A DNA stretch of 64,000 bases. Origin: Methanosarcina sp. MTP4. Its GTDB lineage: Archaea > Halobacteriota > Methanosarcinia > Methanosarcinales > Methanosarcinaceae. The notes under the pieces were generated by a model. That model was not told the DNA's origin. It did not search any database and worked only from the letters and a program-made list of their open reading frames with translations. Positions 6,554 to 9,884 of the stretch are shown here, one piece after another. How positions within the stretch are numbered: position 1 is the first letter of the stretch; each line of letters opens with the position of its first letter. The DNA lies in the NCBI RefSeq assembly GCF_000970045.1, contig NZ_CP009505.1, forward strand, positions 620,001-684,000. The letters run 5' to 3'. A program made the translations under genes and the position numbers.

Positions 6554-6994
6554 TTAACTCCTGACAACCATTACCGGGATCTTTGAGTTCCGTACAACTT
6601 TCTCAGCAACGCTGCCAAGGAGGAACCTGTCAATCCCACTTTTTCCGTGTGTTCCCATTACTATCAGGTCAACGTTGTTGTTTTCTGCGAAATCGATTAT
6701 CTCGTTGCTCGGATGTCCTTCCCCAAGAATTTCTTTGACTTCAACCCCCGTGGCTTCTCCGGTTTCCTTTACGTAGGAAATCGCTTTATTCCCTTCATTC
6801 TTCAGGATTTCGTACATTGCTTCCCAACCGGCATCCATGGGTATTGAGGAAAAAGAAGATGTATCCACCACGTAGAGTGCATGGACTGTAGCCCCGCTCA
6901 TTTTTGCAATCTCAATCCCATAAGATATCGCCCTGTCACTGTTCTCAGATCCATCGGTTGCAATCACAATGTTCCTGTAAAACTCGCTTGTCAT
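6554..6994 (-). CDS. Universal stress protein, UspA family
   Basis: This is a 146-residue single Usp domain. The N-terminal strand reads NIVIATDGSENSDRAI, and the ATP-binding motif G-2x-G-9x-G-S appears as GTHGKSGIDRFLLGSVAEKV near residues 113-132, so ATP binding is likely. It ends with the strand IPVMVV. It overlaps the stop of the amidohydrolase gene by 4 bases (ATGA), which indicates translational coupling. The CBS gene follows. The partners suggest a nucleotide-sensing role, but the target is unknown. Confidence 0.93.
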   Translation of the reverse strand: MTSEFYRNIVIATDGSENSDRAISYGIEIAKMSGATVHALYVVDTSSFSSIPMDAGWEAMYEILKNEGNKAISYVKETGEATGVEVKEILGEGHPSNEIIDFAENNNVDLIVMGTHGKSGIDRFLLGSVAEKVVRNSKIPVMVVRS

Positions 6995-8121
6995 GTTATG
7001 TTCTCCATCTGCTTTGAATGAAGCACGGATAGTATATCGTCGGGTCTGGCCCGCCTGACGACTCCATTTATCGGGTCCTTTATCCCTGTAAGATTATTTG
7101 AATTTCCGTTAAGGATCATCAAATTAGCTTTATTCCCCTTTTCTATTGAACCCTTGGAATCAAGCCCCATTACAAAAGAACCATTAAGTGTACAAATTTT
7201 AAATACTTGTCTGTCATCAATCGAAAACACTTTGGACATAAATTCCATTTCAGCAAACATATTTACAGAATTTAACATTACATTATCAGTGCCGGCGGCT
7301 ACTCGAATACCTGCTTCGAGCATTTCGGCAATAGGTGCCATGCCAACTCCTGTTACAAAGTTGGATCTTGGACAGACAACTACCGGAATTCCGGCATCTG
7401 CTACCTGGTCCAGGTCTTTTTTTTCTGCTTTTGTAAGGTGAATGAGCAAATCAGGATTCAGTGAAAGGGCTTTTTCAATGTCGTCCCTCTTTTTTTCTCC
7501 TGCATGGATTGCAAAGAGTTTATTCCTTTTCCTGGTGCAGGCGGCAATTTCTTCTAGGCGCTTGAAGTCCAGATCGTTTGCTCCGCTCATCCCTAGCCCG
7601 TCAGAGTGCAAAAGAACTCTTTTTATCTCATTCAGAACGGTTTCCAGAGCTAATTCGGGTTTATCTGGTCTTCCGAATACAAGAGAATGGATATTAAGGC
7701 CTTCAAGAGCTTTATTCAGTGCTGCAGCCCCCACAACTCCTCCTTCTCTGAAATCCGCAAAAGCAAAAGTACCCGTTTCGATCATATCGAGCAGAGACCT
7801 TCTAATGCTTTCTATGAGGGCCGGATAGGATGTTTGTCGAAGTATCCGATGTTTCAATCCATCAGGGGGTTTTACAAGTGAATCAAGTTCTCTTTCAACC
7901 CTGAAACCGGAAACTTTCCCCAGAGACGGGTCTTTGAATACGGAATCCCCAAGGTGGGTGTGGGCGTTGATGAAACAGGGTGCTATAATGTTGGAAGAAT
8001 TAGTGTTTTCTTCTCCGATTTCCGTAATTATCCCGTTTTTTATGCAGACGTAGCCCCTGATAGGTTCAAGTTCGGGGCCTGAAATTATAGTTCCGGAGAT
8101 GATCTTTTCAATGCCGTACAT
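6991..8121 (-). CDS. Amidohydrolase-superfamily protein (cyclic deaminase-like)
   Basis: This 376-residue protein has the amidohydrolase layout: an N-terminal beta sandwich, the metal motif INAHTHLGD near residue 53, the metal ligand FAIHAGE near 200, and AGTDN near 277 carrying the conserved Asp. The closest general pattern is the ATZ/TRZ and SAH/MTA deaminase group. Substrate cannot be read from the sequence. The gene is first in a minus-strand unit followed, with a 4-base overlap, by the Usp gene. Confidence 0.8.
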   Translation of the reverse strand: MYGIEKIISGTIISGPELEPIRGYVCIKNGIITEIGEENTNSSNIIAPCFINAHTHLGDSVFKDPSLGKVSGFRVERELDSLVKPPDGLKHRILRQTSYPALIESIRRSLLDMIETGTFAFADFREGGVVGAAALNKALEGLNIHSLVFGRPDKPELALETVLNEIKRVLLHSDGLGMSGANDLDFKRLEEIAACTRKRNKLFAIHAGEKKRDDIEKALSLNPDLLIHLTKAEKKDLDQVADAGIPVVVCPRSNFVTGVGMAPIAEMLEAGIRVAAGTDNVMLNSVNMFAEMEFMSKVFSIDDRQVFKICTLNGSFVMGLDSKGSIEKGNKANLMILNGNSNNLTGIKDPINGVVRRARPDDILSVLHSKQMENIT

Positions 8122-8392: not shown

Positions 8393-8400
8393 TTTATATC
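8393..8400 (+). promoter_or_regulatory. Archaeal TATA box for the RNA candidate at 8421
   Basis: TTTATATC lies about 25 bases before the start of the GC-richer block at 8421, the usual distance from box A to the transcription start in archaea. A purine-rich BRE-like stretch (GGGGGCG) precedes it. Confidence 0.55.
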
Positions 8401-8420
8401 TAAATACAGATATTTAAACA

Positions 8421-8605
8421 CTCAGTCGCATTGTATAGGTCCTTGCACGAGGATATGGGATTCCCTGCCTGTGAATGTACAGACAACCCCAATGCGATAC
8501 ACCTATAGTGTGAGAATGCCCGGCACGAGGGTAACCGGAAGGGACTGCGGATTGCCAGAGGATGAACTTTCGGAGTTAGTGCGCTCGGGCTACAGCACTA
8601 TTTCT
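8421..8605 (+). ncRNA. Candidate structured non-coding RNA with pseudoknot
   Basis: This GC-richer block sits in AT-rich DNA behind a box A. It can form a pseudoknot: 8426-8433 pairs with 8490-8497 (8 bp) and 8434-8440 pairs with 8501-8507 (7 bp), both perfect and in A-B-A'-B' order. A second domain folds as 8506-8510/8596-8600, 8518-8522/8586-8590 and 8523-8526/8579-8582, enclosing 8530-8537/8548-8556 with one bulge. The pyrimidine-rich tract after 8600 resembles an archaeal terminator. I compared it by eye with SRP and RNase P RNA and saw no clear match. The 119-residue ORF across it (8351-8710) looks accidental. The flanks 8122-8392 and 8606-8848 hold nothing else I recognise. Confidence 0.5.
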
Positions 8606-8848
8606 ACCTGTTTTCCTTGTTCAATTTGTACTTTTATTTTTGTGGTTCTTCAGTCGTGGTCAGTAAGTTTTTTTGATAATGCTGGTCAGCATTCTTGGCA
8701 ACTCTTGTAACCGCTATTTGCCGCCTTCACCGATATAGTTGCGTGTATTTGATCAGTTGCAGATTAATCACTGATGTGGTTGTTGTATTGATTTATTGCA
8801 GATTAATTCGTTATTGATTTATAGGATATCCGGAAAAAGCTAACAAAC

Positions 8849-9163
8849 ATGTCTTTTGAAGACGCAATAAAATCACTGGATTCCGGAGTAATTGTGGATA
8901 TAGAGGTCACACCCGGGTCAAAATCCGTGTCTGTTCCCAGTGGTTATAATGAATGGCGTAAGAGAATTGAGGTCAAACTTACTAAAAATGCCCAGAAAGG
9001 AAAAGCAAATGGACAGTTGATCGAAAGCCTTGCTGAATTTTTCGGAATCAGTAGTTCCAGCATCATGATCAGCAGTGGGGCTACAAGCAGCAAAAAATCT
9101 GTTTTGATAAAAGGTATTTCTTACGAGCAGGCAGTCTCGGTTTTTGGGTCCCGTTTGAAATAA
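8849..9163 (+). CDS. UPF0235/DUF167 (YggU-like) protein
   Basis: This 104-residue protein matches the YggU/DUF167 family: VDIEVTPGSKSVSVPSG near the N-terminus, then IEVKLTKNAQKGKANGQLIE and ISSGATSSKKSVLIKG. The conserved KGKAN motif is characteristic. The fold is known from structures, but the biochemical role is not established. It is followed by the toprim gene on the same strand 78 bases away. Confidence 0.9.
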   Translation: MSFEDAIKSLDSGVIVDIEVTPGSKSVSVPSGYNEWRKRIEVKLTKNAQKGKANGQLIESLAEFFGISSSSIMISSGATSSKKSVLIKGISYEQAVSVFGSRLK

Positions 9164-9241
9164 TATAAAGGCCCAAAAAGATCTCTGTTAAGTTCTGGTG
9201 GATTCCCTGCCCTGTCGAGGCTATATCATAAGAAAAGGTTG

Positions 9242-9682
9242 ATGGTAAACGTGGTTGATGTTGAAGTATACAGAAAAAGGCTTGAGAGGCTTGAAGAGCT
9301 GCTTTCCGAGCTTTCTGAGTATGCCGAAAAAGGCTCTATAATAATAGTGGAAGGCAAAAGAGATGTTCTTTCGCTAAAGAAGCTTGGGATAGAAGGACAT
9401 TTTGAGCTTGCCACCCAGCACCCTCTTCTTAATTTCTCCGAGAAAATAGCACGGCAGAACCGGGATATTGTCGTGCTTACTGACTGGGACCGCAGAGGGG
9501 ACCTGCTGGCCTCAAAACTAACTGAATATTTCGGAAATCTCGCCATAAATCCCGAACTTCAGATCCGGCATAAGCTAAAGCTCATTACGCAGAAAGAAAT
9601 CAAGGATGTGGAAAGCCTGTACACATATGTCTCAAAGCTCAGAGCTTTAACAGGCGCATACACTGACTCTGATCTATGCTGA
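9242..9682 (+). CDS. Toprim-domain protein (UPF0292-like)
   Basis: This 146-residue protein consists mainly of a toprim domain: [17 protein letters not shown] near residues 33-49 holds the catalytic Glu, and [11 protein letters not shown] near 79-89 holds the DxD motif. Toprim domains bind Mg2+ in primases, topoisomerases and RNase M5-like nucleases. Small archaeal stand-alone versions (UPF0292) are uncharacterised and may process RNA. The ATG at 9242 is preferred over a TTG directly before it. The preceding gene is DUF167. Confidence 0.85.
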
Positions 9683-9773: not shown

Positions 9774-9884
9774 AACTAAAAGTGTTAAACTAAAAGTGTT
9801 AAACTAAAAGTGTTAAACTAAAAGTGTTAAACTAAAAGTGTTAAACTAAAAGTGTTAAACTAAAAGTGTTAAACTAAAAGTGGG
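9774..9884. repeat. Tandem repeat, 14-bp unit, about eight copies
   Basis: AACTAAAAGTGTTA is repeated without spacers from 9774; the last copy is imperfect (GTGGGT). It lies between the converging toprim gene and the minus-strand DUF356-like gene. Confidence 0.95.

Follow-up and report, generated by a model that had tools for sequence, protein, structure and literature searches.

A probable two-hairpin box H/ACA guide RNA for 23S rRNA pseudouridines in Methanosarcina

The closest described relatives of the RNA reported here are HgcG, also known as Pab40 or Pf7 (RF00064), of the Thermococcales, together with Afu-4 of Archaeoglobus, and the HP1/HP2 RNA (Hvo1/Hvo2) of Haloferax volcanii (PMC2584109, PMC4652768). 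The 23S rRNA of Haloarcula marismortui carries three pseudouridines, at positions 1956, 1958, and 2621 (1915, 1917, and 2586, respectively, in E. coli numbering; PMC2584109). In Haloferax, HP1 has been assigned to 2621 and HP2 to 1956/1958 (PMC2584109; likewise PMC4652768), and HP1 and HP2 are described as homologs of Pf7 stems II and III, respectively (PMC2584109). Eukaryotes guide the equivalent helix 69 pseudouridines with U19 in human and snR191 in yeast (PMC2584109), RNAs of eukaryotic architecture that we liken to the archaeal ones by function only. In the open literature we found no earlier description of this RNA in Methanosarcina; a mention in a supplementary table is possible.

We analysed a window of 64,000 nucleotides from Methanosarcina sp. 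MTP4 (contig NZ_CP009505.1, positions 620,001 to 684,000), whose region 8393-8605 (coordinates here and below are those of the window, unless a gene of rRNA is named) holds a GC-richer, structured, non-protein block at about 8425-8597 on the plus strand. This block very probably encodes a housekeeping two-hairpin box H/ACA guide for pseudouridines of 23S rRNA at 1915 and 2586, possibly also 2555, where the E. coli numbers of our own positions were counted from conserved landmarks rather than from a full alignment. Judged by sequence, the RNA is the Methanosarcinales counterpart of haloarchaeal HP1 plus HP2 and of hairpins II-III of Pab40/HgcG: its hairpins I and II correspond to HgcG hairpins II and III, and they stand in the same order as HP1 and HP2, the hairpins with assigned targets 2586 and 1915/1917.

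The RNA locus and its neighborhood

The predicted features of the locus, as read from the window and from our main alignment of 28 sequences (all loci on one strand), are the following.

8393-8400, plus strand: TATA box (box A) TTTATATC, the top match to TTTATATA in the upstream 60 nt
8425-8597, plus strand: predicted two-hairpin H/ACA guide RNA gene, from the conserved block and covariance model R1
8425-8433, plus strand: hairpin I lower stem, 5' strand, 9 bp with 8490-8498
8434-8441, plus strand: hairpin I 5' guide strand UAUAGGUC, AGGUC conserved except in one genus
8442-8448, plus strand: hairpin I GA stem, 5' strand, pairing with 8475-8482 with one bulged base
8449-8450, plus strand: kink-turn I GA, non-bulged strand, GA (AA in 4) and then G, 28/28
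8451-8469, plus strand: hairpin I kink-turn apical (C) stem and terminal loop, pair G8451-C8469 invariant
8470-8474, plus strand: kink-turn I 3-nt bulge ending in U, then GA (UGU-GA), U-G-A invariant, 28/28
8475-8482, plus strand: hairpin I GA stem, 3' strand, from pair counts
8483-8489, plus strand: hairpin I 3' guide strand ACAACCC, AACC invariant
8490-8498, plus strand: hairpin I lower stem, 3' strand, from pair counts
8499-8501, plus strand: ACA box 1, directly past the lower stem, ACA in 26/28 and AUA in 2/28
8518-8526, plus strand: hairpin II lower stem, 5' strand (GCCCG G CAC), pairing with CGGGC and GUG in 8579-8590
8527-8534, plus strand: hairpin II 5' guide strand GAGGGUAA, GAGGG nearly invariant
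8535-8542, plus strand: hairpin II GA stem, 5' strand, pairing with 8566-8573 (8 positions plus 2 sheared GA, making 10)
8543-8544, plus strand: kink-turn II GA, non-bulged strand, invariant, 28/28
8545-8560, plus strand: hairpin II kink-turn apical (C) stem and terminal loop, from the alignment and pair counts
8561-8565, plus strand: kink-turn II 3-nt bulge ending in U, then GA (GAU-GA), U-G-A invariant, 28/28
8566-8573, plus strand: hairpin II GA stem, 3' strand, from pair counts
8574-8578, plus strand: hairpin II 3' guide strand AGUUA, GUUA invariant
8579-8590, plus strand: hairpin II lower stem, 3' strand (GUG CGCU CGGGC), from pair counts
8592-8594, plus strand: ACA box 2, ACA in 28/28
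8598-8622, plus strand: pyrimidine-rich 3' flank, a likely terminator judging from its sequence

The original prediction had proposed a gene for a structured RNA under a promoter of its own, and several observations bear this out. A DNA search recovered the block in 33 of 40 genomes, one copy each, and the covariance model R1 matched 172 of the 186 genomes of the order, including 115 of the 118 good ones and all 27 of 27 genera, nearly always once; in our own genome its match (G000:C1:628425-628599) spans window positions 8425-8599. The helices of the RNA covary, as detailed below, and the conserved core of the 28-sequence alignment starts at the first stem and ends at an ACA motif. The predicted box A indeed stands at the right distance, with its center about 29 nt before the first stem, and the same TATA box lies 24-29 nt upstream of the RNA in most relatives. 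From box A and conservation, we infer that the 5' end of the gene is at 8425, and its 3' end would lie at 8597, 3 nt past the second ACA box; the pyrimidine-rich end ascribed to the block is present as the 3' flank. One genome of family f7 (G186) has two copies of the RNA (C24:65090-65261 and C9:181880-182052), while almost all others have one.

Next to the RNA gene is a minus-strand gene, presumably amidohydrolase-like (6991-8121), and downstream of the RNA lie two plus-strand genes that are presumably DUF167-like (8849-9163) and Toprim-like (9239-9682). The stretch from the Toprim-like gene to the one that follows contains, at about 9780-9880, roughly 7-8 head-to-tail copies of a 14-base unit, ACTAAAAGTGTTAA. 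The DUF167-like gene is retained next to the RNA by most genera of the family, and also by family f3, with no evident functional link. Since it lies downstream on the same strand at most loci of family f1 as well as in f3, the RNA could be read as a cis-acting, riboswitch-like leader of this gene, but we consider this very improbable. The RNA occurs without the gene in several genera and families, has a box A and a pyrimidine-rich end of its own, stands at a varying distance from the gene, and matches no riboswitch family; in particular, the DUF167-like gene is absent from the flanks read at L009, L012, L022, L023, and L025, which argues that the RNA is not its leader.

The two-hairpin fold and the proposed pseudoknot

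In the 28-sequence alignment, 89% of the cells of the two-hairpin fold are paired, and 25 of its 43 pairs have changes on both sides. Its covariation score of 0.309 compares with 0.168 in shuffles (0/500 reached the observed value) and with at most 0.103 in slid versions of the fold. In a wider alignment of 35 sequences over the phylum, which was fitted to the model and hence leans to the structure as the 28-sequence alignment does not, the number of pairs with changes on both sides is 40 of 42, and the score is 0.563 versus 0.220. The support extends to the individual helices: the hairpin I lower stem has changes on both sides at 7 of 9 pairs (94% of cells paired), the GA stems of hairpins I and II at 4 of 7 and 5 of 8 pairs, respectively, the inner GGC/GCC-type stem of the hairpin I apical stem covaries, and the CAC/GUG part of the hairpin II lower stem is 100% paired and covarying. 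In an RNAalifold consensus, the two hairpin I guide strands were paired together and part of the linker was set against the 3' ACA box; this consensus was rejected in favor of the H/ACA fold.

The elements expected of an archaeal H/ACA guide are found in both hairpins. Each kink-turn has a bulge of 3 nt ending in U and GA opposite GA, kept in 28/28 sequences, and each hairpin is followed by an ANA box (ACA or AUA, 28/28). The lower stems measure 9 bp in hairpin I and 8-9 bp in hairpin II, and the GA stems comprise 7-8 positions plus two sheared GA. The published spacing between target uridine and ACA is 14-16 nt (PMC7991803, PMC3608112). For hairpin I, the spacing from pocket to ACA is 14 or 16 nt depending on the target, and for hairpin II it ranges over 14-17 nt; the value of 17 in the window, which lies outside the published range, is due to a bulge in the lower stem.

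This fold bears directly on the original prediction, which had described the block as a pseudoknot of two perfect helices, of 8 and 7 bp, followed by a long second stem-loop domain. The 8-bp helix, TCGCATTG/CAATGCGA, does exist, as the lower stem of hairpin I, and it covaries. The second stem-loop domain is likewise real, and is hairpin II. The 7-bp helix, TATAGGT/ACCTATA, is present letter for letter in the window, but it is not conserved, so that the pseudoknot fails as the defining fold: all 7 pairs form only in our own genus (4 sequences), 4 sequences from two near genera form 6 of 7, and no other relative exceeds 5 of 7, three sequences of family f3 having 1 of 7. Its formation would moreover tie up the linker, the 5' guide strand of hairpin I, and the final base of the ACA box. 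The expectation that the arrangement goes beyond chance holds for the block, given its recurrence by both searches, and not for the second helix, which may reflect chance or an alternative pairing specific to the clade.

We accordingly regard a new class of RNA with regulatory or catalytic function, pseudoknotted through these two helices, as exceedingly improbable. The window sequence does allow both helices to be drawn, the first of them covaries, and the second is complete or nearly so in our own and the near genera, yet among the other relatives (1-5 of 7 pairs) the second helix shows a single double change, and it overlaps the guide strand and ACA box of an H/ACA fold that covaries throughout.

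The protein machinery of an H/ACA guide is encoded in our own genome: genes for Cbf5 (452 bits), Nop10, Gar1, and L7Ae were all found above curated cut-offs. The Gar1 match (G000:C1:3736496-3736717, minus strand) spans one TGA stop, which could be a neighboring frame, an overrun of the alignment, or a sequence error. By analogy with the family, the RNA would be transcribed and assembled into an RNP in which L7Ae binds each hairpin at its kink-turn and Cbf5-Nop10-Gar1 bind along the pocket, the lower stem, and the ACA box. Each pocket would then form duplexes with the 23S rRNA that flank a uridine, and Cbf5 would convert this uridine to pseudouridine.

Predicted targets in rRNA

The pocket of hairpin II can be placed around U1948 of our own 23S rRNA (E. 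coli 1915), where the invariant GUUA can pair with UAAC in the loop of helix 69 and GAGGG with CCCUC of the same helix. In nearly every relative read, this target region, GGGGGUAAC[U]AU(G/A)ACCCUC, is identical; the G at 1918 is replaced by A in some families, and the C at 1914 by U in one genome (G029). On the side of the guide, the 5' strand of families f2 and f5 reads GGGUUA, which lengthens the helix 69 duplex, and in family f1 the duplex has one mismatch, A8533 opposite G1918. The guide-target duplexes are short (4-6 bp per arm). When 910 rRNA uridines were ranked, each hairpin being represented by 13 guide variants, U1948 came second for hairpin II, and shuffled guides matched the best known-site rank in 1/60 trials for each hairpin. 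We thus predict that hairpin II guides pseudouridylation of E. coli 1915, and possibly also of 1917.

A different uridine, U1265 of 16S rRNA (about U1321 in E. coli), was the first candidate for hairpin II to come out of the scan of our own rRNA operon. Its complementarity to the pocket (8527-8578) is the top-scoring one in our own rRNA, with 9 bp on one side and 4 bp on the other. This uridine is C in 4 of 11 relatives in which the guide is unchanged, however, and it was dropped as a conserved target for that reason; an H/ACA guide whose hairpin II modifies 16S U1265 is quite unlikely. The complementarity in our own genome could reflect a side target in some species or chance, and helix 69 stands as the predicted target of hairpin II.

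Hairpin I fits two sites in our own 23S rRNA, U2578 in the A-loop (E. coli 2555) and U2609 in the peptidyl-transferase region (E. coli 2586). Its 5' guide strand is complementary to GACC after U2609 and to CCUAU after U2578, and its 3' guide strand to GGGUU before U2609 and GGUUGU before U2578. Both target regions are identical in the genomes read, the U2586 region being GGGUU[U]AGACC. Genus g6 (L017, L018) has changed hairpin I guide letters (AAGUUC, AUAACC) opposite unchanged 23S target regions.

The two sites can be weighed against each other on several grounds. In the ranking with 13 guide variants, U2578 comes first and U2609 fifth, and the bases C8484 and A8437, needed just for the A-loop duplex, are kept in nearly all sequences of the order. 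In addition, A. fulgidus Af4.2b has been listed with L2601 (PMC4652768), and the offset between our own 23S rRNA and that of A. fulgidus (22-23) would put L2601 on U2578 (as read from PMC4652768). These points favor modification by hairpin I of the A-loop uridine only, to the exclusion of U2586. Across the phylum, however, only the letters that fit 2586 are kept (GUC and AACC), and the C needed for the A-loop is G in haloarchaea-type sequences, where HP1 has been assigned to 2586 (PMC2584109). We consequently judge the A-loop alone to be a rather unlikely target and predict that hairpin I guides U2586, possibly together with the A-loop uridine 2555.

The retention of letters for both sites leaves room for a more speculative reading, in which hairpin I of the Methanosarcinales is a dual-specificity guide that serves 2555 as in Archaeoglobus and 2586 as in haloarchaea, and in which the 7-bp pairing of the Methanosarcina clade could further mask the pocket as a switch. 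We put this forward tentatively, as somewhat doubtful.

Relation to known families and occurrence in other archaea

Rfam searches of the window at gathering scores returned three tRNAs only, with no riboswitch or other family, and searches of the block at E-values up to 10 gave chance-level matches only. The original prediction had found no match to SRP RNA, RNase P RNA, or a riboswitch class, which was correct, but the class is a known one, very probably that of the two-hairpin H/ACA guides. Although the window RNA does not reach the gathering score of HgcG (RF00064), whose Rfam model misses it, one genome connects the two: in G316, R1 (76.6 bits) and the Rfam HgcG model (98.4 bits, cut-off 77) cover the same bases, with hairpins I-II overlying HgcG II-III, which bridges the window RNA to a known H/ACA family. 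Full-length HgcG matches below the cut-off of 77 were found in G228 (64.5), G208 (40.2), and G199 (32.7). The window RNA has two hairpins rather than the three of HgcG, lacking the first one, and the TATA box occupies the place of the extra hairpin. Given that it falls below the HgcG threshold and has two hairpins, we class it as an H/ACA guide homologous to HgcG and not as HgcG itself.

Members of family f3 (L027, L028, L029, and L094) have an extra hairpin directly upstream of hairpin I, ending in a GC-rich stem followed by ACA, and they appear to keep the three-hairpin form. The best rRNA target of this extra hairpin is U2519 of our own 23S rRNA, which would equal P. abyssi U2588 by the numbering offset; U2588 is the in vitro target of Pab40 (PMC6138745).

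Beyond the order, R1 matches 223 of 393 genomes sampled over the phylum, and it finds the hairpins in Haloferax and Haloarcula genomes. A scan of named genomes, for which the query was a 15-base core plus flanking letters, placed the RNA in Methanosarcina, Methanosalsum, and many haloarchaea, with a few unrelated chance matches. In Haloferax prahovense, R1 matches both hairpins as separate hits owing to a longer spacer. Haloarchaea have a longer spacer between the hairpins, and their hairpin I has lost the letters that fit the A-loop, whereas the hairpins of the window RNA lie close together. The Haloferax volcanii HP1/HP2 RNA is presumably the one called sR-h45; compared through publications, it shares with the window RNA the pocket letters AACCC and GUC of hairpin I and GAGGG and GUUA of hairpin II. 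In three genomes of haloarchaeal type (G338, G415, and G355), a 23S rRNA gene is followed by the H/ACA RNA at a distance of about 1-3 kb downstream, unlike in Methanosarcina.

Taken as one mostly single-copy family, these RNAs widen the Pab40/HgcG lineage from the Thermococcales and Archaeoglobus through the methanogens to the haloarchaea, much of which the model in Rfam misses. The Methanosarcinales, which are genetically tractable methanogens, gain a candidate guide RNA, one that can be deleted, for the most conserved pseudouridines of the large subunit, and the pocket of hairpin I would allow testing of how one guide shifts between two sites in the active center of the ribosome.
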